Shown here in pieces: positions 1 to 22,656 of a stretch of DNA of 25,004 nt. Position 1 is the stretch's first letter. Each line of letters starts with the position of its first letter. The stretch is taken from IMG/VR virus record IMGVR_UViG_3300030098_003827, positions 1 through 25,004 of that record; one strand, 5' to 3'. Below the pieces are notes generated by a model. It did not search any database and was not told the DNA's origin. It was given only the letters and a program-made list of their open reading frames with translations. A program made the position numbers and the translations under genes. This DNA is from a virus.

Positions 1-3000
1 TTAAAAGTATTTCCAGCTTCATCTGTTACATCTACACTTTTGAATTCTTCTACTTGCGCTTGGGAACCTTCATAACCTATAGTTTTAAAAGATTTAACAG
101 TTTCTGGAGATGAATTAAAAATAAATTCAATACTTGACGGATATAATTCACCATAAAAAGTACCACTTGGTACATCGGCGTAATGCTCATATATACAGTT
201 TTGATAACCAGTATAATATTTACCAAAAACAGAACAACCCTTTTCAGGTGCAAATGATTTAAAACTAACCCAACCTTTAGTTGCTTCACTAAAGGAAACA
301 GTTTCATCACCTAGCGTTAAGTTGTATTCACCGCTACGAATATCAAAACTACCCACTAATTTACCACTTCCCTTTAAAGTCGATTTAAAGTAAGTTTTCA
401 TACCAATATTAGAGATTGGTGTTAAACCATCTCTTGATAATCTTAATACAGCGCCTCTTTGTTTATCAGTAAAATACATTCTATATTGATCTGATGCTAA
501 TGACTCGGGATTTGTTGATATTCCATAATCACCAGCGAATGGTATAGCTGTACCCAATACTCTATCTGTAGCTGTTAATTGAGGGTTACCGTCAGCATTG
601 TATAAAGCATCTTTATTTGCTAACACCTTTAACACCTTGTCCTCAGTAAAAACAACAACATCGTTGTCTCTTGTTTTTAATCTTTGAATAGAACCGTATG
701 AAGGGTTTATATCTTTAGTAATTTTTTCTCCAGCAATAAATTGATTTAAATCATTAACAGAAGAACCAGAGTTATACAAACCAGAATATATCATACTATT
801 TGTTTTGTTTTCCTCTTTATAACCAGAGAAGGTTGTAGAAACTTTAACACCATTATCTATTTTAGGAGCATTGAAATCATCTCTTATCCTATTTGATTCA
901 ACACCATTACCAAATGAATAGCAATTATGCCAACCTATCTCAACCGGATGTTTGTAGACATCGGAATCAATTTGGTAGTAACCACTAGATCCTTGTAAAT
1001 AAACATAATACCATTTACCAGTTGTTCCACCAACAGCCATCCATTCAACACCAAGTGTTGTTGTCATATTTAAAGAGTCTCCATAATAATTCCATATAAA
1101 ACATCCTAAAGGAACTGCTCTATAATCATCGATAGGAGCTAGATCGTCACCAGCTATACTACTACCAATTTGTACATTAGTTGGTAGTATTTGAAGACCA
1201 CTATTTAAACCAGATGTAGCACCTGTTCCTGTCCAAGAAGAGCTAGCTGTATCATACTTTTGTATTTGAAAACTATTCCCATCAAAATTTTTCTTAATTC
1301 TTCTATAAAACTTAGTTTCTTCTACACCAGCTGATGTAACTTTATTAATAACTTTAGATCTGGTTCTCGTGTTATCACCAAGATTAAATACTAAATAGTC
1401 TCCAACACCAATACTATCCACTTGAGGATAATTTGGGTTATTTCCTACAGCGCTATTTATAAGTACAACTGTTGTTCCTGGACCCATCATATTATGATGA
1501 GCATACTCAACGTGAGTATCTTTAACGATTTCGCTCGAGAATGGACTAGCAGTATTAACACGTAAAAGATTTGGATCTTCACTTGCTAAAACAGATCCCG
1601 CTCCAAAACTACTTAAAAATAGATCTGGATACCAAGCATCTCTTCTTATAGACACTCTACCAGTTGTAGGTATAAAAGAATATAAATTAGATTTAGTAAG
1701 TTTTAATGGTAATGCGGGAGAAGCTTCATAATATAAATCTAATTCAACACTTTTTTTAGGTTCTGTTTCCCACACGGCTCTATTAGCCTCTGGAACAACT
1801 ATTGAACCTGGAGCAACTAAAGGTGATACTATTTGAAGTTTAATTGTACCTATACCATCATGTCTTAATGCTCCTCTTGGATCAAATTTTGTTGGATCAA
1901 TACCTTCATTTGTAAGTTGTCCATCTACTACTTTTCTAAATTCAAATCTTATAGAAGCTCTATTACAAACACTACCTCCTCCCAACATATTTGCAACACA
2001 TGGTGCACAGTCTACAGATAATTGAGCTGTTTCACTCGGGTTAGTTGTACTTGACATATCTGTAAAATCACTTAAACTAATTTCATTAGTACCTGATATT
2101 ACGCCAGTGGTAGTGTTAAAATGACTAAAGTTTGATATAATGTAACTTTCTCTTATTGGAATAGGAGTTCCATCTTCACTTTCTGTTACTATTTTATATA
2201 CACTCTGAGTTGAATCATCTTTAAATCTAATAAGAGTGCCATTTGTAATTTGTGCTCTAAAATCATCAGTACTATACGCTCCATCAAAACTATTCCATCC
2301 CGAAAGTCCTACTTGTGCAAAACCTAAACCAGCTTGAGATAAAACCATTCTTCCAAGAGTTCCAGCGTCTGCACCACCTTGATCCAAAGCCTCTGGTTTA
2401 AAATAGTCAAGCGCTTCGTTGGCGTCACCTAAACCATCGTTCCATTGCCATCTTCTAGATCTAGCACCATCCATAAATATTCTACCGTAATCATCACTTG
2501 CATCACTTACTGCTTGAGAAGCAGTTTTCATATTATCAAATAAAGCATTCCAAAAACTATATGTATCGTCGGCGAGATTGATTACATTAACTTCCCCACC
2601 ATCAGCAGCAGAAATAGTTGAACCTCCTGTACAACCCAAACCCATTAAGGCTGGATCTTTATCTGTACCAGTATAATCTCCAGGGTCACCCACAGAACTA
2701 GCTGTACCGAAACTAACGCCATTTAGATATGTTGCACTGTCACCATCATTAAAAGTATGATCAGCATATACACCTTGAGTTGCTGGATTTTTTATAGCAG
2801 ATTCTATATATGCGATATCAAACTCTTTTATAGTACCATATTCTATATTCCCCATACTTAACCTCTCGACATTATCGGCTATAATATTATCATCATCTTT
2901 TTCTATTAATACGAAAAATCTACCATCAAATTCAGGTTTATTATCTACAACATCTTCTGCTATTTCAAAGTAATAATTAATATTTGGAGCTGCAGTTAAG

Positions 3001-5822
3001 GTAGATTCACCAAATTGTAAATTACTAGCGTTTATATATCCTTCTTGTTTAGCTATAGTATAGTAGTCTATCTCTGTCTTTGTTAAATTATCTTCCCATT
3101 TAAACGTACAAGTAGGGTTACTGCCAGTACCAGTTTTATAGTTGTTAATTGTTCTCCACTCCATATTAGTATACGTCTTAACTACAGCTGAGCTGGCAAG
3201 TTCTGTTTCTTTAAGATCCGCTACTATTCTAAACTTCAAAGTCCCCTTTCTCTCATAATCTTTAAGAAGATTACCATATTGTCCACTTGTAAAATTCAAC
3301 GACCTAGTATTTACACCAGATGTTGCATCATCACTAATTTCATAAAGATATTTAGGTGAATCTTCATTTAATTGGAAAGAGTTTGTATTTGGCATTAATT
3401 GACTTTTAGTCATTAGTAATCGACCTAAAGTTCTTCTTTCTGTTTTGATGTAATCTGGCGCTTCATTATCTATGGATATTATTTTATATCTATTTGGTAG
3501 TCTAACAGCATCATCATTACCATGAGTTTTCTTTAATATTAAATATGTTTCCTCATCTATCTTATTTCTATCAGCTGAAGGAAATGATAACCATATGTTC
3601 TCCTTCTCTTCAGCATAATACCATTTATCCATTACTAAGTTGTAATACTCATTAGAAGTTTCTTTAACATAGTATTTTACGTATTCCATCCAATCCGGTG
3701 GTTCATAACTAGTACCACTATCTGTTGTCCAATTTTGTTTTAATACAAATGAATTAGAATAATATGATAAATCAGCACTAACATATGAAGATGAAGTAAT
3801 GGGTGTATCTTCATCAGGACCCTTAAGTAAATAAGAGGATGTTATAACTGGTGTTTCTCTACCGTACTTATCTCCAAATACTAATCCCCATTCATAATTT
3901 CTTAGTGACTTAATAGATTTTTTAGGACTATTTTTTGAAACAATTTTTTGACTATTTATAGTTGATACTACAGAAATAGGATAGTAAATATTATAACCTT
4001 GTGTATAGTTAGCAAATAAAAGTCTATTACCTATTATCTCTTGAGCTTTAGCATATCTAGGGACATTATCCCAAGATCTAATAATTTGATTTTCTGGTAA
4101 AACATGATTTATAGTATCAGCTGTTATAATTAGTTTACCAGTTTCACCATCTATTTCAGATAAACTATCTGTTACAAAATTATCCCATTCTGGATCTACA
4201 CCTCTCCTTATTTCTTTAACAACATATACTAAATTTGAGTCAGTTCTTTTAACTAAAATTTCTATACAAGATACATCTAGTGGTCTTTGTGTAAATGGTA
4301 CTACAAAATCTCTTATAGTTAACTCAACTACTTTATTAACCATACCTAGATTATAACCGTGTTTGGCATCATATTTATAGCCACCAGGACTAAACATAAT
4401 ATTAGTAAATGGTGAAAAAGTAGAATATTCTCCATCATCATACTTGTATCTATAACCAAACCTTTGAAAGCTTAATTCAAATAAAGGTTTCTCTTCATTT
4501 GTTGCTATAACATCTACTTCCCAACTACCATCGCTTTCTGTAACCGCTTCTTCAATTTCTAATACTAATACTTTTATTCTTACAGTACTTGAAAGTGTTT
4601 CTTCCATTTGTGCATCTAAGTAACTTAAAAATCTAACTTTCACTACCTTATCAGAATCTGTAGTTGAAGTAAATCTAAGTATTTCATTAGCTCTATACTT
4701 AGTGAAAAAATAAGCAAGATGAACTAGTTGATGCGTGTCGCCTTCACTAACCATATAATCTATACCACCAGAAATCGCTGAAAATGTATTTTTAAAATAC
4801 TGAGTATCAGTAGTAACGGTTATAGAAGGAGATGCCTCGTATGTTGTGCTAGCTTGTATAGTTGGAGGAGTTGTTGGAGGTTTTTTTATAACTGTTATAT
4901 GCTCTTCTTTTATTTGATCATCTACATTAGTAGATTCAATATCTGATATAGGTATTATAAGATCATCTCCAGTTGTGCTTAATGGTGTTGGATTATAAAC
5001 AGTCAACTTTGTATGAGTGGTCATATCTGTTGAACCTTCTTTACATTTCTCTATATTTATCTTCTTTGGCTCTGAAACACCATCTGTCCAAAGTAGATAG
5101 TCATCTATAATATTTATACCAGTTATATCATGTATACCATTGCTATATGAAGAGAAGTTTAAAACTCTAGGTGCTAGAAATCTAAATGCAGTAGCATTTG
5201 TTAATACAGTTTCTTGAGAAGTTGTAAAAGTAAGAACATTACCTGATACTGATTTTATTTCTAAATTTACATTTGGAGGGTTTGTAGAACCATAAACAGT
5301 AACTGACATACCAGCTCTATAATCTGAACCAGTTGTAACAGTTAGGGTGTTCCAAGAAGAACTTCCATTTGGAAGATTAGAGGCGTCTGTTACTTGAGCA
5401 GTGTTTCTAAATATAGCATGTTTATCTATAATAACTGGTTTTGTTTCGTTTGTTGTAGCATCCTGCTCTAATATAGCATCTATATAAACTTTATTATCAA
5501 ATCCATTAGTAAGATTAGAATTACCATTTGTAAAAAAGAAATAAGCTTTATCTTTTCTTTCGTTAGCAATACTACCTATACACTTTGTTCCTGCATCGCC
5601 ATCTAGCCCATAACCACTACTACCACCTCCTTCAAATGTACCAACCTTATCGTTACCTTGTATATTTTGAACGGTACCAATATTACCCTCACCCTCTCCG
5701 CTATCAACAGATGTTTTTACTTCAATATTTAAAGCGTGTCTATACTCACCATTAGGAACAAGTCTTTCATCAAGATCCTTATTCATTCTACCACCTGTAA
5801 AAGTATTTTTAATTTCTGGCAT
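1..5822 (-). CDS. Giant tail/stabilisation-like structural protein, 3' end beyond the window
   Basis: An open frame runs from ATG at 5822 down to the left edge without a stop that I could find, giving at least 1,940 residues. The product starts MPEIKNTFTGGRMNKDLDER and continues with VPNGEYRHALNIEV. It is rich in Gly, Ser, Thr and Asn with beta-strand-like stretches. Close to the left edge it reads GDYGISTNPES, then FTDKQRGAVLRLSRDG, which looks like a beta-propeller or tail-associated region. I recognise this N-terminal and C-terminal pairing from many uncultured marine phages, where it is sometimes labelled phage stabilisation or tail protein (P22 gp10-like), but I could not test that. It starts 4 bases after the stop of the 296-aa gene, so it is translated from the same message, last of the neck/tail genes visible. 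It could also be a tail spike or nozzle component. Structural role is likely; exact role is uncertain. Confidence 0.8.
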   Translation of the reverse strand, partial: MPEIKNTFTGGRMNKDLDERLVPNGEYRHALNIEVKTSVDSGEGEGNIGTVQNIQGNDKVGTFEGGGSSGYGLDGDAGTKCIGSIANERKDKAYFFFTNGNSNLTNGFDNKVYIDAILEQDATTNETKPVIIDKHAIFRNTAQVTDASNLPNGSSSWNTLTVTTGSDYRAGMSVTVYGSTNPPNVNLEIKSVSGNVLTFTTSQETVLTNATAFRFLAPRVLNFSSYSNGIHDITGINIIDDYLLWTDGVSEPKKINIEKCKEGSTDMTTHTKLTVYNPTPLSTTGDDLIIPISDIESTNVDDQIKEEHITVIKKPPTTPPTIQASTTYEASPSITVTTDTQYFKNTFSAISGGIDYMVSEGDTHQLVHLAYFFTKYRANEILRFTSTTDSDKVVKVRFLSYLDAQMEETLSSTVRIKVLVLEIEEAVTESDGSWEVDVIATNEEKPLFELSFQRFGYRYKYDDGEYSTFSPFTNIMFSPGGYKYDAKHGYNLGMVNKVVELTIRDFVVPFTQRPLDVSCIEILVKRTDSNLVYVVKEIRRGVDPEWDNFVTDSLSEIDGETGKLIITADTINHVLPENQIIRSWDNVPRYAKAQEIIGNRLLFANYTQGYNIYYPISVVSTINSQKIVSKNSPKKSIKSLRNYEWGLVFGDKYGRETPVITSSYLLKGPDEDTPITSSSYVSADLSYYSNSFVLKQNWTTDSGTSYEPPDWMEYVKYYVKETSNEYYNLVMDKWYYAEEKENIWLSFPSADRNKIDEETYLILKKTHGNDDAVRLPNRYKIISIDNEAPDYIKTERRTLGRLLMTKSQLMPNTNSFQLNEDSPKYLYEISDDATSGVNTRSLNFTSGQYGNLLKDYERKGTLKFRIVADLKETELASSAVVKTYTNMEWRTINNYKTGTGSNPTCTFKWEDNLTKTEIDYYTIAKQEGYINASNLQFGESTLTAAPNINYYFEIAEDVVDNKPEFDGRFFVLIEKDDDNIIADNVERLSMGNIEYGTIKEFDIAYIESAIKNPATQGVYADHTFNDGDSATYLNGVSFGTASSVGDPGDYTGTDKDPALMGLGCTGGSTISAADGGEVNVINLADDTYSFWNALFDNMKTASQAVSDASDDYGRIFMDGARSRRWQWNDGLGDANEALDYFKPEALDQGGADAGTLGRMVLSQAGLGFAQVGLSGWNSFDGAYSTDDFRAQITNGTLIRFKDDSTQSVYKIVTESEDGTPIPIRESYIISNFSHFNTTTGVISGTNEISLSDFTDMSSTTNPSETAQLSVDCAPCVANMLGGGSVCNRASIRFEFRKVVDGQLTNEGIDPTKFDPRGALRHDGIGTIKLQIVSPLVAPGSIVVPEANRAVWETEPKKSVELDLYYEASPALPLKLTKSNLYSFIPTTGRVSIRRDAWYPDLFLSSFGAGSVLASEDPNLLRVNTASPFSSEIVKDTHVEYAHHNMMGPGTTVVLINSAVGNNPNYPQVDSIGVGDYLVFNLGDNTRTRSKVINKVTSAGVEETKFYRRIKKNFDGNSFQIQKYDTASSSWTGTGATSGLNSGLQILPTNVQIGSSIAGDDLAPIDDYRAVPLGCFIWNYYGDSLNMTTTLGVEWMAVGGTTGKWYYVYLQGSSGYYQIDSDVYKHPVEIGWHNCYSFGNGVESNRIRDDFNAPKIDNGVKVSTTFSGYKEENKTNSMIYSGLYNSGSSVNDLNQFIAGEKITKDINPSYGSIQRLKTRDNDVVVFTEDKVLKVLANKDALYNADGNPQLTATDRVLGTAIPFAGDYGISTNPESLASDQYRMYFTDKQRGAVLRLSRDGLTPISNIGMKTYFKSTLKGSGKLVGSFDIRSGEYNLTLGDETVSFSEATKGWVSFKSFAPEKGCSVFGKYYTGYQNCIYEHYADVPSGTFYGELYPSSIEFIFNSSPETVKSFKTIGYEGSQAQVEEFKSVDVTDEAGNTF

Positions 5823-8669: not shown

Positions 8670-10169
8670 TTACTTCATTAACATAAAGTTGTTAGCACCT
8701 TGAGTAACTAAACATCTTTCAGATAACATATGGATTTCCATAGCATCTAAAGCAGATGTAGTAGCACCAACAGAACCAGTAACCCAAGTTTTGAATTTTC
8801 TACTTTCTGTTTGAGAAGCTCTATATCTAACGTGTAAGAAAGGTCTTTTCATGTTCTTTCCTAAAGCTTGATCATAAACTGAAGATACACCAGCTGGAAT
8901 AATAGCACCTCTGATAGCAGCTGAAGTACCACGAGTATTAATCGCGCCACGAGTAGCTTTATCATTTAGATATTTCCAGTCAGATTTATAAAAGTCATAA
9001 GAACCTCTTCTAAATCCTGAGAAACCTAAGTTTAATGCCATATCTTCATCGTTGTCAAATACTCCATAAGAAGTACCTCCAGCTCCGTAAGAATTCATTG
9101 AAGCAAGCATGTCATCTATTGCAAGAGCAGTAGCTCTATTTACAAACATCATGTTTTCTTCAATAGCACCTTGATTATCAAACTCAGCTAAGATAGCATC
9201 AAATTCAGCTAAATCAGTAGCAGCGTTAACACCTGTAATACCAGAAGTAACGTTACCTCTTTGCTCAATAGCATCGAATAAACCTTGAGTACCTACACCA
9301 CCAGAACCTGCATCAGCAGAACCTCTAATTTCACCATCAGCAAAACCAATGATAGATGCAGCAGCTGATTTTTCAGCTTCTAACAATGTCATTTCCATGT
9401 AGTCAGTAAATCTAGCTCTAGTTTCACCTTCAGCTTTTAGATACCATAAGTAACCACCAGTTCCATCTTCAGCAGAAACTTCAACCCAACCTACCTGTGA
9501 AGCATCAGAACCAGATACAGCATAATAATCTTTCATTATTTGCATTTGGTTTCCAAATGATTTAAATGTAGGTGATAAAGAAGTTCTCTTATCTGCAGCA
9601 GCCGCACCAGTGATAGCACTGTAAGACTGTCCTTTAGCAAAGTGAGAACCTACTACTAATAAAGTTGCTGTACCATCAGATAAAGTTGATAAAGCAGCTG
9701 TAGCATAAGGTTCAACAGTAACAACAGCAGTAGCTGGAGTTTCTACAACCAAAGCTTTAACTATAACGCCAGCTTGAGCGATTAATACAACATCGTTCAC
9801 TCTAATACCGTGAGATGCAACAGCGAAACCATTTTCACCATCAGCACTTCCATCGATATCATGAGTAACTGTAAATGTACCATTTGTATCACCATCAGCA
9901 TCTACCGTACCAACGTAAGATAAATGTAAACGTGATTGTTCAGACCATACAACCTGATCGGATGCACTAGCCTCTTCTGCACCAACTTGAGCTAAGAATC
10001 CAGAAACAGTTCGATTACCGAAAACCGCTGCTTCTTTTTCCATCAAGTCAGGCAGGTATTGTTGTTCCCATCCGGTAGAACCGTCTGTGAAATCTATGTA
10101 GTTTGATGCCAACGCTTGTTGTTGCGCCGTAGGCACTTTATTCAAACTAGCACCTGCAGTAATTGCCAT
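8670..10169 (-). CDS. Major capsid protein, 499 aa
   Basis: The 499-aa, Ala/Gly/Thr-rich protein follows the scaffold gene and ends at a strong terminator, as expected of a highly expressed coat protein. Its N-terminus (MAITAGASLNKVPTAQQQAL) is helical and flexible. Residues about 83-178 form a beta-rich block (VNDVVLIAQAGVIVKALVVE, AVVTVEPYATAAL) that looks like an insertion domain in an HK97-type fold. The remainder has FTDYMEMTLLEAEKSAAAS (a spine-helix-like segment) and a C-terminal RPFLHVRYRASQT segment. Base use is visibly less AT-rich than the neighbours, with many GCA/GCT and ACC/ACA codons, in keeping with high expression. There is no Shine-Dalgarno site before the ATG; the leader is TTAAAAATTAATTATTATG. 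HK97 fold is inferred from gene order and composition, not shown. Confidence 0.85.
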   Translation of the reverse strand: MAITAGASLNKVPTAQQQALASNYIDFTDGSTGWEQQYLPDLMEKEAAVFGNRTVSGFLAQVGAEEASASDQVVWSEQSRLHLSYVGTVDADGDTNGTFTVTHDIDGSADGENGFAVASHGIRVNDVVLIAQAGVIVKALVVETPATAVVTVEPYATAALSTLSDGTATLLVVGSHFAKGQSYSAITGAAAADKRTSLSPTFKSFGNQMQIMKDYYAVSGSDASQVGWVEVSAEDGTGGYLWYLKAEGETRARFTDYMEMTLLEAEKSAAASIIGFADGEIRGSADAGSGGVGTQGLFDAIEQRGNVTSGITGVNAATDLAEFDAILAEFDNQGAIEENMMFVNRATALAIDDMLASMNSYGAGGTSYGVFDNDEDMALNLGFSGFRRGSYDFYKSDWKYLNDKATRGAINTRGTSAAIRGAIIPAGVSSVYDQALGKNMKRPFLHVRYRASQTESRKFKTWVTGSVGATTSALDAMEIHMLSERCLVTQGANNFMLMK

Positions 10170-11472: not shown

Positions 11473-13869
11473 TTAAAACCGGTCAATACCAGCGTCCCCC
11501 GTAACTATATCATTACCTGATGATTCAAACTTATTAAGTGAATCACCCCTATTTCTTTGATCTATCATTTCTTTTTGATGACTAGCTTGTCTATCTACTC
11601 TAGCATCTTTTCTATCTTCTCTCTTAGTTTCATTACGTTCCGTAATCTCTCTCTCCATTCCTTTTAATTGAGAGTTTAGTTCAAATTCATATGCCATTAA
11701 TTCTTTTTTAACAGCAGCTTCTTCTCTTAAATATTGAATTTTTAACTGTCCTTTTGTTTGCTCTAATTGAGCTTCAGCTTGAGTTTTTGCTTGATTCTTT
11801 TGCACTTCAGCTTGAGCCGCTGCTTGTTGTGCTTGTTGATTTGCTTGAGATTGAGCTTGAATATTTTGTTGTTGTATTTGTTGATCTCTTGCTATTTTTC
11901 TCCTTCTTTTAACTTTAAGTAACTCATTAGCTAGTTTTATATTTCTAACATTACGAAGATCAATAGCATCATCTAAATCAATTGATTGTTGTGATAATGC
12001 AACTTGTATATTATTTTCTAATATAGCTTTTTCTTCTTCATCTGGTAATAGTTCTATAAATATACCAAAATCATATAAATGTAAGTTTCTAAGTTCATCT
12101 AAAGTAGCTACATTATGTACTCCAATAGCATGTATAAATGCTTCTTTAGTTGGTGAGTACTCTATGATATCAGATATTCTTAATGATAAGCACTCAGCGA
12201 CCTCTGCCGTTATATATAACATAGACTGTAATATGTGTCTAGTTGCTGTATTTGAATTAGCAGCTGCCATTTTCTGTACACCAACTAAAGCATTACGATC
12301 TGGAGTACTAGCATCTCTAGCTTCATTTAATCCCGTTACATCCCTTATCATCTGTAAATAATAATTATAAGTTGTAATTAAACTTTGCAATTTACCACTA
12401 TTAACTCCATTGTTAATTTGTGTTATAGGTACTTTACCTGGATTAGGATCTCCTTCAGACGTAAAGCTTCTACCAATAACACTACCAGTTTGGAAGAACA
12501 TGTTTAGCGCTTCTTGTGGATTGTAGTTTGTTCCATTACCCAAATCAATTTCAGCCAAACCATCGGCATCTAAATAAACTCCATCAGGAACCATACGAGC
12601 CATCACTTGTTGTAACTTTAAATGAGTTAATTGAATCATATCAGCGAAACCTGTTATTCTACCCACTAAAGACTCTATCCTACCTCTATACATTCTAGGT
12701 GCAACTAATTGATAGCTCATCTTTACTTTAGAGAAATCAGAATCAGATCTCATCATATTTTCCATCATCTGCCATCTTAAAAGTTTATCACACCCTATAA
12801 TATAAACTCCTTCATATACAGTTTCAATAACTCGTTCTAATTTACTAAAATCACCATCCATATTTTCTACAGGTGGGTTAAACGTGTCATCTTTTTCAAT
12901 AACTTTCTCAGCACCACTTTTAACTTTCTTTAATTTATAAACATCATTCATATGAGTTTTGTAATTAAAGTATAAAACTTGAATTTTATTTTTATCGTTA
13001 TTAGCTTGATAATTAGCGTTATTGTAGACAGTTTGCCCAGAATTATCTGTTATTTCTTTTATTTCACTTTCTGTTAATTCAGGAAATTCTTTAACAAGTT
13101 CATTTATTGGGATATCTTTAACTTCACCTATATAATACACATCTTCAAAATATGGTGACTCCGTATGTGAATAAACTATACTAGCTGGATCAACATACTT
13201 AGCTTTAGCTCCATCAGCCCAATCGAAAGTTGTTTTAGTAGCAGCAATACCTAATGTAGTTAAATCGTATAAACATCTTCTTCTAACTAAATCATAATCA
13301 CTATCTTCAAGCAAAACATTAATAGCTTGTTCTTCTGCTAACTCAACCGCTTGTTTGTAATTAAGTTGCATGTGAAGTGATAGCTCTTCTTCTGTATCTG
13401 GTAAAGTATCAGGATCATTTTCATATAAATCTATATCAAATCTTTGTTTAGCTATTTCATTAAAATTTTTAGCACGAATATCACGGAGCATAGACTCCAT
13501 GTACTCAGTTCTTTTACTAACACCAAATTGATCTTGTGAAAAACAATTTATTTGAAAATTTCTTTGAGACATCCCATTTACTACTATATCGACAAATTTG
13601 GGAATAATTGGAACAGGCTTCCAATCTAAGTTGAGATATGATAAGTCACCGTTTATAGATAACTCATTTTTGTATTTTTCTATAGACTGCTCGCCTCTAG
13701 CATATAATCTTAGTTTATGAAAATTATTTACATTATCGTAAAACTTAGAACTAACACCCTCAAACCACTCTTGTCTAATAGCTTTTGCAACTTTCTCTCC
13801 ATACTTATGAGATAGTTTTTCTAAATCACTAACTGCTTGTGATGGAAAATTTACAACAGATTCTGTCAT
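11473..13869 (-). CDS. Portal protein, 798 aa
   Basis: The product should form the dodecameric ring at the packaging vertex, where it docks terminase and later the tail. It lies 3 bases after the large terminase stop and before scaffold and capsid, the classical portal slot. The N-terminal part has KLRLYARGEQSIEKYKNEL, then LNLDWKPVPIIPKFVDIVVN, typical of podovirus-like marine portals. The middle carries the MVAPRMYRGRIES-type stem region (here QLVAPRMYRGRIESLVGRI) and the IRDVTGLNEARDASTPDRNA segment common in portals. From about residue 655 to 770 there is a long Gln/Ala-rich then charged coiled-coil tail, ending in GNDIVTGDAGIDRF. At 798 aa it is longer than T7-type portals (about 536) and nearer P22 (725). 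The C-terminal extension may form a barrel or an exposed tail. Confidence 0.85.
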   Translation of the reverse strand: MTESVVNFPSQAVSDLEKLSHKYGEKVAKAIRQEWFEGVSSKFYDNVNNFHKLRLYARGEQSIEKYKNELSINGDLSYLNLDWKPVPIIPKFVDIVVNGMSQRNFQINCFSQDQFGVSKRTEYMESMLRDIRAKNFNEIAKQRFDIDLYENDPDTLPDTEEELSLHMQLNYKQAVELAEEQAINVLLEDSDYDLVRRRCLYDLTTLGIAATKTTFDWADGAKAKYVDPASIVYSHTESPYFEDVYYIGEVKDIPINELVKEFPELTESEIKEITDNSGQTVYNNANYQANNDKNKIQVLYFNYKTHMNDVYKLKKVKSGAEKVIEKDDTFNPPVENMDGDFSKLERVIETVYEGVYIIGCDKLLRWQMMENMMRSDSDFSKVKMSYQLVAPRMYRGRIESLVGRITGFADMIQLTHLKLQQVMARMVPDGVYLDADGLAEIDLGNGTNYNPQEALNMFFQTGSVIGRSFTSEGDPNPGKVPITQINNGVNSGKLQSLITTYNYYLQMIRDVTGLNEARDASTPDRNALVGVQKMAAANSNTATRHILQSMLYITAEVAECLSLRISDIIEYSPTKEAFIHAIGVHNVATLDELRNLHLYDFGIFIELLPDEEEKAILENNIQVALSQQSIDLDDAIDLRNVRNIKLANELLKVKRRRKIARDQQIQQQNIQAQSQANQQAQQAAAQAEVQKNQAKTQAEAQLEQTKGQLKIQYLREEAAVKKELMAYEFELNSQLKGMEREITERNETKREDRKDARVDRQASHQKEMIDQRNRGDSLNKFESSGNDIVTGDAGIDRF

Positions 13870-13872
13870 GTT

Positions 13873-16101
13873 TTATTTCTTTATTATTGTTGATTGAAAT
13901 CCTTTATTATCGTATTTAGATATATTAAGGTTTAATGGTGTTTTCTTTTTATCTGGATTAGGTTTGTATAAATGTCTGTTACAAGCCATTATGGCTAAAC
14001 CAGTACTTATAGAGGCATCATGCTTTGTTCTTTTATTTATATCAAATTTAGCCCAATCATTAAGTGTATCATTGAAGTACATTGCACCATAAGTACCATC
14101 TTCTAATAATCCAACGTGATCGTTGATATATGTTTCAATAGCAGCAGCATGAGCTTGTTTTATATCTTCACTTGAGTTAGGTATTCCACCAACTTCTTTT
14201 TCTGCTACTGATAATTTATTCCAAATTTTATCTGGTCTATTCATACTAAAACCTCTATACCCTCTTCTTCTTAAGTAGTATAAAAGTCTAGGTTTATTAT
14301 TCTCTGCTAATAATGGCATACCGTAAAATACTAGTGCCATTAATACGTCTTCAAAAAACATATCAGCAGTTTGAGGTCTAGCTATATATTCTAAAAAGAA
14401 TGTATTAGCTGGAGCATCTTCCATAGAGAACTTTGTTAGTCCATGTAAAGCTCCTTTAGATCCTTTAGAATCTACTGTCCCAGATATATCATATGAGTCA
14501 CAACCAAACGCTCCCATATGTTCATTACCTGGATATTTTACGCCATTTTTAATTATAACGTTATTTTGTAATTTATGCCCTGGTACCCAACTAATTTTAA
14601 ATCTACCATTTGGATCTGGATTAAAAGTAACCTGAGTATCTTTAACTCCATTAATCCATTGAAAATTACCAGTTGTTAAAACAGATGAGTTTCTATTTCC
14701 TTCATTATAATCTATCTGTTCGTATATTTTTACTAGATTAAATAAACTATTTTTAGTTTCATCTCTAAAAGCGTGCTCCTCTGTTCTAGGGAACTGACGA
14801 TAAAATTCATTTAAAGCGTCTTGATCATCTCTTAAACCTTGAGCTTCGTTTTCCCAGTTATCTATTACTCCTTGGTCTATTTCTACTCCATGTGGATCAA
14901 ATGTTTGTTGCTCAGGATCACTGAACACAGGTCGTCCGAATTCATCAATGAATCCTTCGTAATTCCACTCCATAGGAATAAACAAAGAATATAATCCCGA
15001 CTTAGTTTGTCCATTTCTGTTTCGCTTGGTAACATCTGAATCATAATATAGATTTTTAAAATTATCACCTCCTTTATCTAATGCATTCGATGTTGATCCC
15101 ATCATACATTTACCAACCACTCTACTACCTAATCGTAAACAAGTTTTTGTAACTCTCCAGTTATTTTTTATATTATCAGGTTTTTCCCATTTACCACTTT
15201 CATCGTGAACTAATAAATTTAACTTTTCACCATCGTAACTATTGTCACCCGTGTTTTTCCAATCTATAGTTGTATCTAATCCCTGCATATCATCAACCTC
15301 TTCTCGTTCTCTCATTTTCTTTCGAGTAAACTTCTTAGCAGGAACTCTATATGCTAATTCAGATTTTGGACGATCCATACCATCTTGTATTGGTTTAAAG
15401 AAGAATGGATAATTAATACTAATTGGTACTACTTTATCTGTAAACATTTTTTTAGCATCACCACCAGTTTTAGATAATATACCAAATCTACTATCACTAG
15501 CAAGTGTTGCTAAATTAACAGTTTCAGCTGAACTCATAAAAGAGAAACCAGAACGTCTATTTTTTAAATAACACATTCCATAACTTCTTTTATCTGCCTT
15601 GCAAGCTTCCCAGAATATAAAGAATAATCTATTTGCTTCTCTAAAATCTGGAGCTCCAACATCAATCTTACTCCACTGTAAGTACATATAGTGTGTACCT
15701 GTTATATAGGTTGGTTTACCATTATTCGTAAACCAAAACCCTTCGTCTCTTCTTTTAAACTCCTCATCTATATATCCATAATGTTTTTCTTTAAAATCAT
15801 CTGGATAATCTTGCCAGTCAAATACTGTTTTAATTCTTTTAAAATCAGGATTAGATGGAAATTGTTTCCATTTCTGTTCTTCTTTCTTTTTACTACAAGA
15901 ATATACTTCTTTTGGTATTTTAGGTAAAGCTATTTGTAAGTTTTGTATTTCTATAATATCACCGATCATACCTGTTTTAGATATTACAATAATATCATTT
16001 TCTTTATTATAACCGTATTCCCACTTTTTAGATTTATTTAATCTTTTTATAGTGTTTAACTTTATAGGTTCTACAACCTTACATAATGTTTGTTCGTACA
16101 T
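13873..16101 (-). CDS. Terminase large subunit (ATPase and nuclease), 742 aa
   Basis: The packaging motor ATPase and headful or site nuclease. Numbering from a possible GTG one codon upstream (16104), residues 181-190 carry a Walker-A-like KNRRSGFSFM, a deviant P-loop of the kind found in some terminases. Residues 295-302 are the Walker B LNLLVHDE with the catalytic Asp-Glu. GKCMMGSTSN (331-340) fits the coupling motif. The C-terminal nuclease shows GCDSYDISG at 534-542 (first metal-binding Asp) and KHDAS near 694 (last acidic residue). I choose ATG at 16101 because it shares one base with the preceding TGA (TGATG), the usual overlap here. Length is within the family range, with about 100 extra N-terminal residues before the ATPase domain. 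The motifs make this assignment secure. Confidence 0.92.
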   Translation of the reverse strand: MYEQTLCKVVEPIKLNTIKRLNKSKKWEYGYNKENDIIVISKTGMIGDIIEIQNLQIALPKIPKEVYSCSKKKEEQKWKQFPSNPDFKRIKTVFDWQDYPDDFKEKHYGYIDEEFKRRDEGFWFTNNGKPTYITGTHYMYLQWSKIDVGAPDFREANRLFFIFWEACKADKRSYGMCYLKNRRSGFSFMSSAETVNLATLASDSRFGILSKTGGDAKKMFTDKVVPISINYPFFFKPIQDGMDRPKSELAYRVPAKKFTRKKMREREEVDDMQGLDTTIDWKNTGDNSYDGEKLNLLVHDESGKWEKPDNIKNNWRVTKTCLRLGSRVVGKCMMGSTSNALDKGGDNFKNLYYDSDVTKRNRNGQTKSGLYSLFIPMEWNYEGFIDEFGRPVFSDPEQQTFDPHGVEIDQGVIDNWENEAQGLRDDQDALNEFYRQFPRTEEHAFRDETKNSLFNLVKIYEQIDYNEGNRNSSVLTTGNFQWINGVKDTQVTFNPDPNGRFKISWVPGHKLQNNVIIKNGVKYPGNEHMGAFGCDSYDISGTVDSKGSKGALHGLTKFSMEDAPANTFFLEYIARPQTADMFFEDVLMALVFYGMPLLAENNKPRLLYYLRRRGYRGFSMNRPDKIWNKLSVAEKEVGGIPNSSEDIKQAHAAAIETYINDHVGLLEDGTYGAMYFNDTLNDWAKFDINKRTKHDASISTGLAIMACNRHLYKPNPDKKKTPLNLNISKYDNKGFQSTIIKK

Positions 16102-16376
16102 CACTTAGATCTTCCTTCTGCGAATCCTTTAAAAACCTGTTTCTTATCTTCTTCTATAGGCTTTCCTTCAAGCATAGCTTCTTCTTCATGGATTCTATTT
16201 AATATCTCAAAAGCATCGAATATAGCTAGTTTTTTTGTTGCTGCAGCATTTTTTAATCTATCAGCTGATATATCTTCGTCTGAATCAACTATTTCTTCTC
16301 TAGCTACTTTAATTAACTCTTCAACCGCTTTGTGCCCAGCTTGGATTATATTCTTCTTCGTTTCCTTGATATTCAT
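16101..16376 (-). CDS. Candidate small terminase subunit, 91 aa
   Basis: A short helical protein directly upstream of the large terminase. It contains NIIQAGHKAVEELIKVAREE and ISADRLKNAAATKKLAIFDA, then FEILNRIHEEEAML. The acidic and helical character, position and the TGATG overlap with the large terminase support a small-subunit role, that is, recognition of the packaging site, but no clear helix-turn-helix is visible. The conserved-looking ADRLKNAAATKKLAIFDAFEIL block is one I recall from marine phage genomes at this position. The first 56 bases overlap the end of the 195-aa gene in another frame. The coding call is secure; the terminase role is an inference. Confidence 0.7.
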   Translation of the reverse strand: MNIKETKKNIIQAGHKAVEELIKVAREEIVDSDEDISADRLKNAAATKKLAIFDAFEILNRIHEEEAMLEGKPIEEDKKQVFKGFAEGRSK

Positions 16377-16908
16377 ATTTAATTGTAATAAATTTATTCA
16401 TTATCCTATATAATCTTTCTCCATTTATAAAATCTTCACATTGCATTCTAGGAATATAACCAACCAACTCTCCACTATTAAAAGTTCCATCTGAGTATTT
16501 AATAATACCTACTAGTGGTCTTTCATCTTCTATATTAAAAGAATCAATAGCTTTTAGTGGTTTTATAAAACTAAAACCAGGTAAAGTTTTGTATTCTTCT
16601 TTTTTATAAAGAAATATCTGATCTTTAGATATCAAATATTTATCCTCTTTCCAATAAGACCTACTATTCTTTTCTCTACCTTTAACATCGTGCCATCTTC
16701 TAAAAACGTTATGATGCACTATTACTTCATCACCCACGCTAATAGGTGATTGAAATAATAGTGGAGTAGCGATTACCTTTGCTAGTCTATTTACAAACTG
16801 ATGATTATAAATTTCAGTGTTTAGTATAAGCTCTTTTTTACCAACTTTTTTATAGTTATTATATCTTTCACCTATTGGTGATACTATAAAATCTTTATAA
16901 GCTTTCAT
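16321..16908 (-). CDS. GroES-fold-like protein (second co-chaperonin candidate), 195 aa
   Basis: Residues about 1-102 can be aligned by eye with chaperonin-10. An N-terminal strand is followed by KKELILNTEIYNHQF (24-38, matching the mobile loop with its GGIVL-like hydrophobic triad), then NRLAKVIATP (matching the GxVxAVG strand), then ISVGDEVIVHH (56-66, matching VKVGDxVxF), and finally KYLISKDQIFLYK (90-102, matching EYLILxEsDILAIV). Residues 130-180 may be a second half: PLVGIIKYSD, SGELVGYIPRM, INGERLYRIMNKFITIKYEY. It ends EEYNPSWAQSG. Its ATG shares a base with the preceding stop (TAATG), and its last 56 bases overlap the next gene. It lies 4 kb from the true groES/groEL pair. It could instead be a GroES-fold protein with a structural role. 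Confidence 0.6.
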   Translation of the reverse strand: MKAYKDFIVSPIGERYNNYKKVGKKELILNTEIYNHQFVNRLAKVIATPLLFQSPISVGDEVIVHHNVFRRWHDVKGREKNSRSYWKEDKYLISKDQIFLYKKEEYKTLPGFSFIKPLKAIDSFNIEDERPLVGIIKYSDGTFNSGELVGYIPRMQCEDFINGERLYRIMNKFITIKYEYQGNEEEYNPSWAQSG

Positions 16909-19003: not shown

Positions 19004-19429
19004 TTATTTATTATTTTGTTGTTCTTGATTCTTTTTTGACGATCCGCCGAAAAAGAAATCGACTACCGTATTAACTTTTGCGCTCATTGCGCCAAATATT
19101 GTAGAGATAAAACTTATCTCAAATTCCCCCATGTTTATATCTCCTACCACGAAGAATCTAAACATCATAAAGCTTAATCCAAAGTACGCAACAGTAAATA
19201 ACGTTGCAAGTATCTTTTGAATAATCGCATCGTCTTTGTACATATCCCTAGCGCTCTTTCTGTCTTCGACTTCTTGCTTAAAGGCTTCTTGTTCTGCTTC
19301 AAGTAGTAAGCGCTTAAGAGCAAGCTTTGCTTCATCTCTTTCTTTGTCCGTTGTAATAACCTTGTCAAGTATTCCTTCTGCATTTTCTACTACTGTGCTG
19401 AATAAGCCACCTACTAAATTCTTTATCAT
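19004..19429 (-). CDS. Holin (3TM-type, gene-transfer-release-like), 141 aa
   Basis: Forms the membrane lesion that times lysis. Residues 1-24 are an amphipathic helix (LVGGLFSTVVENAEGILDKV). Residues 28-68 form a charged helix rich in Glu, Lys and Arg, ending EVEDRKSARDMYKDDA. A membrane segment follows at 69-95 (IIQKILATLFTVAYFGLSFM continuing MFRFFVV), and a second hydrophobic region at 100-127 (GEFEISFISTIFGAMSAKVN). The C-terminus is polar and Gln/Asn-rich. This layout, with an RDARxR/SARDMY-like linker before paired membrane helices, matches the holin family of 3TMs. The start overlaps the winged-helix gene by 4 bases (ATGA). No endolysin is visible in the window. Confidence 0.75.
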   Translation of the reverse strand: MIKNLVGGLFSTVVENAEGILDKVITTDKERDEAKLALKRLLLEAEQEAFKQEVEDRKSARDMYKDDAIIQKILATLFTVAYFGLSFMMFRFFVVGDINMGEFEISFISTIFGAMSAKVNTVVDFFFGGSSKKNQEQQNNK

Positions 19430-20843: not shown

Positions 20844-21101
20844 CTATTCTACTAGCACTATATCCCTCATACGTATAACTCTATATAGTTCATCGTTATA
20901 AGCTATATCATGTCCAGCTACAGCATCGTAATATATAACATCACCTTCTTTTACTATTTCAACCATATTACCAACAGATACTATGTTTGCTTTTCTATAT
21001 CTATTTGTCTCGTCTGTTTCTTCTGTTAGAATTAAACCACTAACTTTTTTTGGACCTTCCTTTATTATATCCACTATAACGTAGTCATTAATTGCTCGCA
21101 T
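20844..21101 (-). CDS. groES: Phage co-chaperonin GroES, 85 aa
   Basis: The lid of the GroEL cage. It starts MRAINDYVIVDIIKEGPKKV (the usual RPLxDRVxVK-like strand), then SGLILTEE (21-28), which is the mobile-loop motif equivalent to GGIVLT that docks on GroEL. KANIVSVGNMVEIVKEGDVI (37-56) matches the GxVxAVG and VGDxV core strands. AGHDIAYNDELYRVIRMRDI (62-81) matches the last strands with the DILA-like end. At 85 aa it is shorter than the E. coli protein (97); the missing part is the stretch between GN and EGD that forms the roof hairpin in bacterial GroES. The gene starts inside the end of groEL, overlapping by 14 bases, so its translation is probably coupled to groEL. Recognition is confident. 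Confidence 0.88.
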   Translation of the reverse strand: MRAINDYVIVDIIKEGPKKVSGLILTEETDETNRYRKANIVSVGNMVEIVKEGDVIYYDAVAGHDIAYNDELYRVIRMRDIVLVE

Positions 21102-22656
21102 TTTCTAATCTTATATTTGAAATTACACAATCTGCTGACATAACAGTTAAGGCTACACTTACAGCATTTTTAAGTGCAGATTTAGTTACAAGTACTGGAT
21201 CAATAATACCTTCTTTAACCATGTTAGGAAAAGTATTATTAACAACATTACAACCATAACCTTCTTTTAAATTACTTGGATTCATCATTAATCCAGCATT
21301 ATTCATTATAGTTTCATATGGAGATGTTAAGGCATTTAACAATACCTTACCGGCTGGTCCGGTCGAAATTTTTTGAGAAGCATTGAGAAGAGCAACACCA
21401 CCACCTGGGACGATACCTTCTTGTAATGCCGCTTTCGTAGCGTAGATTGCATCTTCAACTCTATCTTTCTTCTCTTTTAATTCTACTTTAGAACCAGCAC
21501 CTACCTTAATTATACCAACACTACCAGATAACATAGCTAATCTATCCTCTAATTTCTTTTTAATAAAACCATTCTTCTCATTAGCTAGCTTTTTATTTAA
21601 CTCATCTATTCTACCTTCAATACCTTCAGTCATTCCTTCTAAAGTTAAAACAGTATTTTTATCATTAGTCACAGAAAACTCAGCTTCACCTAAATGCTCT
21701 GGCTTCATAAGATCTAAATCATCTCCTAGTTCTTCGTTTAATACTGTTGCCCCGGTTAATATAGCTAAATCTTCTAATGCATCTTTTCTCGTTGGTCCAA
21801 ATCCAGGAGTATCAATTATATTTATTTTGATATTACCCTTAACTTTGTTCATTAATAAAGCTGATTTTACAGATTGAGCTACTGGGGCTACTATAAGTAA
21901 AGATCTATTATTTTTAATAACATGTTCTAGTATAGATTGTATTTTTCTAATGTTCGGTATCTCTGAAGCTACTGTTAGTACTAGTGGATTATCTAATTCA
22001 CATATATACTTTTCGGTATTAGTTACAAAATGTGGTGATGTTAATCCACAATCAACTTGTACACCATCTACTACTTCAACGTAGGTATCTTCAGTTGGTG
22101 ATTCTTCCATTAACACTACACCTTGCTTACCTACTTTATCATATGCTTCAGCTATAATAGCACCAAGCTCTTCATCGTTATTACATGATATAGAGCTAAC
22201 GGATTTAAGCATATCACCTTCTACATCTATTGATATGTTATTTAAGTAGCTAATGACACTATCTAGTGTTTCATTTACTCCATCTTTAATTTCTCTGATT
22301 GTAAGACCATCTGCGACCGCAGTGTCTATTTGCTTGATTAATGCTTCAGCTAAAACTGTAGCAGTTGTTGTGCCATCACCAGCTTCTTTAACTGTATTTT
22401 TAGCAGCTTCTTTTATTAGGGTTGCACCCATGTTCTCAACCGGATCTAACAAGACTACGCTCTCTGCAACGGTTACACCATCTTTTGTTATGACCGGTTT
22501 GCCACGACCGTCTTCGTAGATAACACATTTACCTGACGCTCCCAATGTGGATTTAACGGCTTGGGCTAATTTATTTACTCCGTTTATTACTTTGTCTTTG
22601 GCTTCACCTCCAAACGCGAGGTCCTTCACCAATTCACTTGGTAAGTTATATTCCAT
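21088..22656 (-). CDS. groEL: Phage chaperonin GroEL, 522 aa
   Basis: An ATP-driven folding cage. The equatorial domain is intact: NGVNKLAQAVKSTLGASG (25-42), VITKDGVTVAESV (55-67) and AGDGTTTATVLAEAL (92-106), whose D94 corresponds to catalytic D87 of E. coli. KDRVEDAIYATKAALQEGIV (397-416) contains D402, matching D398 needed for hydrolysis, followed by the PGGGVALL turn. The apical domain (about 195-380) is recognisable by DCGLTSPHFVTN and PGFGPTRKDALEDLAILTG. In the substrate/GroES groove E. coli Y199, Y203 and L234 appear as Leu, His and Gln by hand alignment. The protein ends NIRLENASN with no Gly-Gly-Met tail and has about 7 extra N-terminal residues. Upstream is an AT-only leader and the metallopeptidase-like gene; downstream groES overlaps. 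It is likely functional. Confidence 0.95.
   Translation of the reverse strand: MEYNLPSELVKDLAFGGEAKDKVINGVNKLAQAVKSTLGASGKCVIYEDGRGKPVITKDGVTVAESVVLLDPVENMGATLIKEAAKNTVKEAGDGTTTATVLAEALIKQIDTAVADGLTIREIKDGVNETLDSVISYLNNISIDVEGDMLKSVSSISCNNDEELGAIIAEAYDKVGKQGVVLMEESPTEDTYVEVVDGVQVDCGLTSPHFVTNTEKYICELDNPLVLTVASEIPNIRKIQSILEHVIKNNRSLLIVAPVAQSVKSALLMNKVKGNIKINIIDTPGFGPTRKDALEDLAILTGATVLNEELGDDLDLMKPEHLGEAEFSVTNDKNTVLTLEGMTEGIEGRIDELNKKLANEKNGFIKKKLEDRLAMLSGSVGIIKVGAGSKVELKEKKDRVEDAIYATKAALQEGIVPGGGVALLNASQKISTGPAGKVLLNALTSPYETIMNNAGLMMNPSNLKEGYGCNVVNNTFPNMVKEGIIDPVLVTKSALKNAVSVALTVMSADCVISNIRLENASN

Follow-up and report, generated by a model that had tools for sequence, protein, structure and literature searches.

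The DNA analysed here, a 25-kb viral contig from IMG/VR (record IMGVR_UViG_3300030098_003827; 25,004 nt, hereafter the window), carries a groEL-groES pair upstream of a block of packaging and structural genes. The features relevant to this study are as follows:

21088-22656, minus strand: groEL, group I chaperonin, 522 aa (Pfam PF00118, PHROG 5725)
20844-21101, minus strand: groES, single Cpn10 domain, 85 aa (Pfam PF00166, PHROG 3188)
21088-21101, minus strand: 14-nt overlap of the groEL 3' end with the groES 5' end (read from the sequence)
16321-16908, minus strand: probable tandem protein of two Cpn10 domains (Cpn20-like), 195 aa, a second co-chaperonin (PHROG 13932, AF2 model and fold match)
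16101-16376, minus strand: ORF of 91 aa between the tandem gene and the terminase, no usable family match
13873-16104, minus strand: terminase large subunit (PHROG 6681, E 2e-170)
11473-13869, minus strand: portal protein (PHROG 6547, E 2e-153)
8670-10169, minus strand: candidate client, a 499-aa product that is probably the major capsid protein (PHROG 13704, annotated as virion structural protein, E 1.5e-99; position after the portal)

The initial annotation had described a minus-strand groEL followed by groES with 14 shared bases, and the open reading frames confirmed both the coordinates and the order: the ATG of groES sits within groEL, and the TAA stop of groEL comes after it. Its inventory of chaperonin genes was correct for the pair but overlooked the third GroES-family gene at 16321-16908.

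The family identity of both members of the pair is secure, as judged from profile matches. GroEL possesses a full-length Cpn60_TCP1 domain (Pfam, 192.7 bits against a cut-off of 34.3, E 1.4e-56) covering residues 30-514 of 522, and it matched PHROG 5725 (groEL) at E 2e-136. The ATPase residues D52, D87, T89, T90 and D398 (E. coli numbering) were unchanged in all 15 GroEL sequences surveyed from the window clade. In the same 15 sequences changes were seen at inter-ring, inter-subunit and apical-groove positions: the inter-ring residues R452, K105 and V464 were mostly replaced, the R197/E386 pair was replaced, and in the apical groove L234 was Q in 15/15 and L259 was K in 14/15. Collectively, these replacements suggest specialisation to the phage's own lids, and those between the rings perhaps point to a looser ring-ring contact. 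GroES consists of a single Cpn10 domain (Pfam, 45.3 bits against a cut-off of 21.1, E 9e-12; PHROG 3188 GroES, E 5e-15). Its AF2 model had a pLDDT of 88.6, confidence being low in the region of the mobile loop (near residues 13-30), and it matched Cpn10 structures in the PDB from E 5e-6. The loop carries the hydrophobic motif SGLILT, in which G22 is invariant and L23 almost so, and the roof segment is short in the alignment.

The terminase and portal genes downstream of the pair make its phage setting secure on sequence grounds. The window terminase is 64% identical to that of the uncultured podovirus MW202828 and 46% identical to that of the Flavobacterium phage elemo; terminase and portal together group the window with these two phages, Cellulophaga phage phi38:1 (Pervagoviridae) and Maribacter phage Panino, with the Pachyviridae further off. 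Since the named hosts of the related phages are Flavobacteriia, we infer that the host likely lies within this class, and probably within Bacteroidota. The product of 8670-10169 is the probable major capsid protein, and its match to Pfam SU10_MCP was weak and below the cut-off. Elsewhere in the window, 19004-19429 (minus strand) is a candidate holin gene with weak matches to PHROG 3427 and Pfam GTA_holin_3TM, and an ORF at 3-5822 (minus strand), encoding at least 1940 aa, runs off the end of the contig.

The third chaperonin gene, 16321-16908, is located two genes upstream of the terminase, and its product is most likely a tandem Cpn10 protein, as suggested by profiles and a structural model. 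It matched PHROG 13932, 'co-chaperonin GroES', at E 1e-16, and in the orthologues from phi19:3 and phi38:1 the C-terminal half scored above the Pfam Cpn10 cut-off. The best PDB match of the AF2 model (pLDDT 77, about 55 for residues 21-40) in Foldseek was Chlamydomonas Cpn20 (7ekq_R; E 2e-4, TM 0.52, 200 columns), and alignment to 7ekq_Q with VIA-align gave a Z score of 8.4 over 152 residues spanning model residues 3-178; the other credible structural matches were single-domain Cpn10 proteins. Two head-to-tail Cpn10 domains were recognised in this way, with moderate evidence for the N-terminal half that came mainly from structure, and hhalign comparison of the separate halves with bacterial GroES gave weak support. 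An HMM iterated on the tandem protein took in ordinary GroES sequences, so no claim about domains was based on its E-values. The N-terminal half contains an ELILN motif that resembles a mobile loop (compare GLILT in groES), no recognisable mobile loop was found in the C-terminal half, and an invariant YNPSW motif ends the protein in the window clade.

The tandem gene was present in 71/71 window-like loci whose sequence extends far enough downstream, the other nine ending too early. It adjoins the terminase region in all relatives examined; the small intervening ORF recurs in MW202828 and the Pachyviridae, and in elemo, phi38:1 and Panino the lid gene and the terminase are immediate neighbours. 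A gene of 180-200 aa near the terminase is annotated as cpn10 or GroES in elemo, Panino and phi19:3. Some genomes list the tandem lid as a plain GroES/cpn10, and no report of a phage Cpn20 or tandem co-chaperonin was found in the literature searched.

We searched the whole genomes of 10 phages that bear the tandem protein: MW202828, elemo, phi38:1, Panino, phi19:3, phi46:3, phi18:3, phi13:2 and two long IMG/VR records. A single-domain GroES was present in every one of them (10/10), and in phi19:3 its gene stands amid replication and recombination genes. No Cpn60/GroEL was found in the four Pachyviridae (phi19:3, phi46:3, phi18:3 and phi13:2), searched whole. Tenacibaculum phage Gundel_1 yielded none of GroEL, single GroES or the tandem protein. 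With its own GroEL, the window does not have a lone lid of the T4 gp31 type, although GroEL-less relatives exist.

We propose that this phage probably encodes a group I system of its own, in which a GroEL ring works with a single GroES and with a tandem lid encoded in the head and packaging module, and that this system serves the folding of virion proteins. The groEL-groES order with its short overlap would be an old, vertically kept trait of a podovirus lineage that has cultured relatives on Flavobacteriia. The mechanism would begin with the three chaperonin genes, which the sequences show to be present and conserved. GroEL would hydrolyse ATP and cycle, as indicated by its intact ATPase residues, and translation of groES may be coupled to that of groEL through the overlap. 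Judging from gene position and from T4 gp31 and gp23, the machine would fold virion proteins, most likely the 499-aa (~55 kDa) capsid protein, which is a plausible client by this analogy. In the weakest step, the single and tandem Cpn10 proteins would join in one seven-domain lid, as chloroplast Cpn10 and Cpn20 do; joint action of the two lids is hypothetical, and co-occurrence alone does not demonstrate assembly. A wider proposal, that a Bacteroidota phage lineage uses a mixed single/tandem Cpn10 lid of seven domains on its own or the host GroEL, as an independent viral counterpart of chloroplast Cpn10/Cpn20, is speculative and in our estimation would probably fail.

To place the pair among its relatives, gene order was surveyed at 338 loci by searching with iterated profiles of GroEL and GroES. 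IMG/VR contains many relatives of the window GroEL that are 70-90% identical to it, and groEL preceded groES in all 80 window-like loci, in 13/14 elemo-like loci and in 78/80 MW202828-like loci, as well as in Panino; in the three loci without this call (elemo-like and MW202828-like) groES was not found, and one locus ends inside groEL. Such a survey of related phages had been proposed in the initial annotation, and it returned the reversed order in about 170 loci. Among bacterial loci with both genes the order was groES then groEL in 78/78, in agreement with what had been claimed for bacterial operons; the window pair lacks the upstream groES of a bacterial groESL operon. The groEL-groES order is therefore a conserved clade trait and not a peculiarity of one phage. 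The accompanying statement that phages mostly carry just one of the two partners, a lid or a GroEL, was not supported, as complete pairs occur in several phages and in both orders (groES-groEL in immuto, DAC19, MaF61 and phi38:1; groEL-groES in elemo, MW202828 and Panino). Pairs of this kind in phages are largely known, as is the reversed order, both being already annotated in public phage records including the deposited elemo genomes. Mislabelled 'phage' GroEL matches that are bacterial contigs (Acinetobacter phage MD-2021a and Salmonella entries) were left out of the count of phage pairs. The sequence CAKLQH020000021.1 (L097), although labelled as phage, has the character of a contig from a bacterial chromosome and carries a host groESL. 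Panino GroEL used as a query against the viral contig collection gave no match.

The 14-nt overlap was identical in 70 of the nearest relatives, and a 17-nt version was present in nine others; its conservation across relatives led us to reject a chance origin. Two window-like IMG/VR loci (L026 and L036) have more than 400 nt between groEL and groES and no overlap. A promoter scan found no excess over shuffles. Whether the order itself matters is a separate point, and there is a substantial possibility that it is a neutral accident, fixed once in the ancestor of the lineage and devoid of functional meaning. We are not aware of any functional effect of the order of chaperonin genes, and the groES-groEL order also occurs in phages of this host group (phi38:1 and immuto). 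However, the exact overlap is retained in 70 relatives and the order in almost every one, as would fit selection for coupled expression, although shared ancestry by itself may account for a large part of this.

In the GroEL tree the bacterial sequences formed a clade (100/98) with all groEL-groES phages outside it. A single order change was needed, and the branch parting the two orders was supported at 93/80; long branches meet in this tree. The GroES tree likewise needed one order change and kept the bacteria separate, GroES being too short for a firm tree. The terminase and portal trees (seven rows) disagreed or were unresolved, with no single groEL-groES group in the terminase tree, which leaves it unproven that the order was passed down vertically along the phage tree. 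The initial annotation had taken the reversed pair as a sign of independent assembly rather than host capture. The absence of host nesting was borne out, but independent assembly does not follow, as one order change suffices on both trees, and an old captured operon rearranged once therefore fits these sequence data equally well. That groEL and groES were acquired separately and ended up adjacent in the reversed order is in our view possible but doubtful. The Pachyviridae, with single and tandem GroES and no GroEL found, indicate that lids can precede or lack a phage GroEL, and the setting of the single groES in phi19:3 also favours separate acquisition; yet the absence of GroEL in the Pachyviridae may be a loss, and the single order change, together with the position of the phages outside the bacteria on both trees, is what co-inheritance predicts, with the reservation that GroES is short.

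With respect to the tandem protein, it is unlikely, though with some evidence in its favour, that the GroES fold was reused for a virion or packaging protein (e.g., one associated with the terminase) rather than for a lid. Its gene stands beside the terminase in all relatives examined and also in phages without GroEL, its C-terminal half has no mobile loop, and its YNPSW end is invariant in the window clade. Against such a role, the N-terminal ELILN motif is mobile-loop-like, neighbouring genes in elemo and phi38:1 are annotated as structural while the tandem gene is not, and a single-domain GroES always accompanies the tandem protein.

That this phage simply captured a host operon and then rearranged it locally is very improbable: the window GroEL is at most 43% identical to cellular GroELs among the matches listed (scan of GTDB genomes), the bacteria form a separate clade, AU tests rejected a grouping of the window clade and Flavobacteriia (p 0.0004) or Bacteroidota (p 0.001), and the reversed order is common to about 170 loci. 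DAC19 illustrates what such capture looks like, having kept the host order and a GroEL that groups among those of Bacteroidales; the GroEL of a 735-kb phage nests there as well, and the tree method thus detects host capture where it is present. Recent capture from Flavobacteriia or Bacteroidota was accordingly rejected on the GroEL tree and AU tests, and the earlier assertion that simple host capture does not explain the pair was upheld, as nesting of both genes in one host lineage was not found.

The closest described arrangement to the phage-encoded system that we favour is in Flavobacterium phages vB_FspP_elemo (MT497071 and relatives), which share the groEL-groES order (with an overlap of 1 nt in elemo) and a tandem Cpn10 gene adjoining the terminase; these genes are annotated there as chaperonin GroEL, co-chaperonin GroES and chaperonin cpn10. 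However, elemo GroEL is 37% identical to that of the window, and the elemo pair is on the strand opposite the packaging genes. MW202828 (Manatee Spring) resembles the window in gene order, terminase and tandem gene (40% identical), but its GroEL is also 37% identical and its tandem gene is annotated as hypothetical. Marine et al., writing on virioplankton chaperonins in 2017, reportedly described divergent GroELs as common in marine viruses and gene order as linked to GroEL phylogeny.

Phage T4 is not known to encode a GroEL. Its gp31 takes the place of GroES, is without roof loops and provides a larger cage for gp23, the ~56-kDa capsid protein (PMC6318259). The window would share with T4 a GroES-fold lid and a capsid client, the latter inferred; T4 has one single-domain lid, whereas the window has its own GroEL and two lid types. 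Chloroplast Cpn20 and Cpn10 form hetero-oligomeric lids of seven domains (PMC5780408). Like Cpn20 of chloroplasts and apicoplasts, its best fold match, the tandem protein has two Cpn10 domains per chain, and in chloroplasts a single-domain Cpn10 occurs alongside; unlike Cpn20, it is viral, shares 16% identity over the structural alignment and has a recognisable mobile loop in the N-terminal half only. Phages EL and OBP also encode a GroEL-like chaperonin, and the window GroEL has lost residues of the inter-ring contacts too. The EL chaperonin is co-chaperonin-independent and passes through single-ring intermediates (PMC5934643), whereas the window GroEL has dedicated lids.

Rather than being an isolated curiosity, the reversed groEL-groES pair marks a phage lineage that is large and old. 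If the proposed role of the tandem lid is true, it would give phages a two-lid system, which to our knowledge is otherwise known only from plastids. The questions of client and symmetry are testable in cultured phages that carry these genes as well (elemo on Flavobacterium; phi38:1 and phi19:3 on Cellulophaga).
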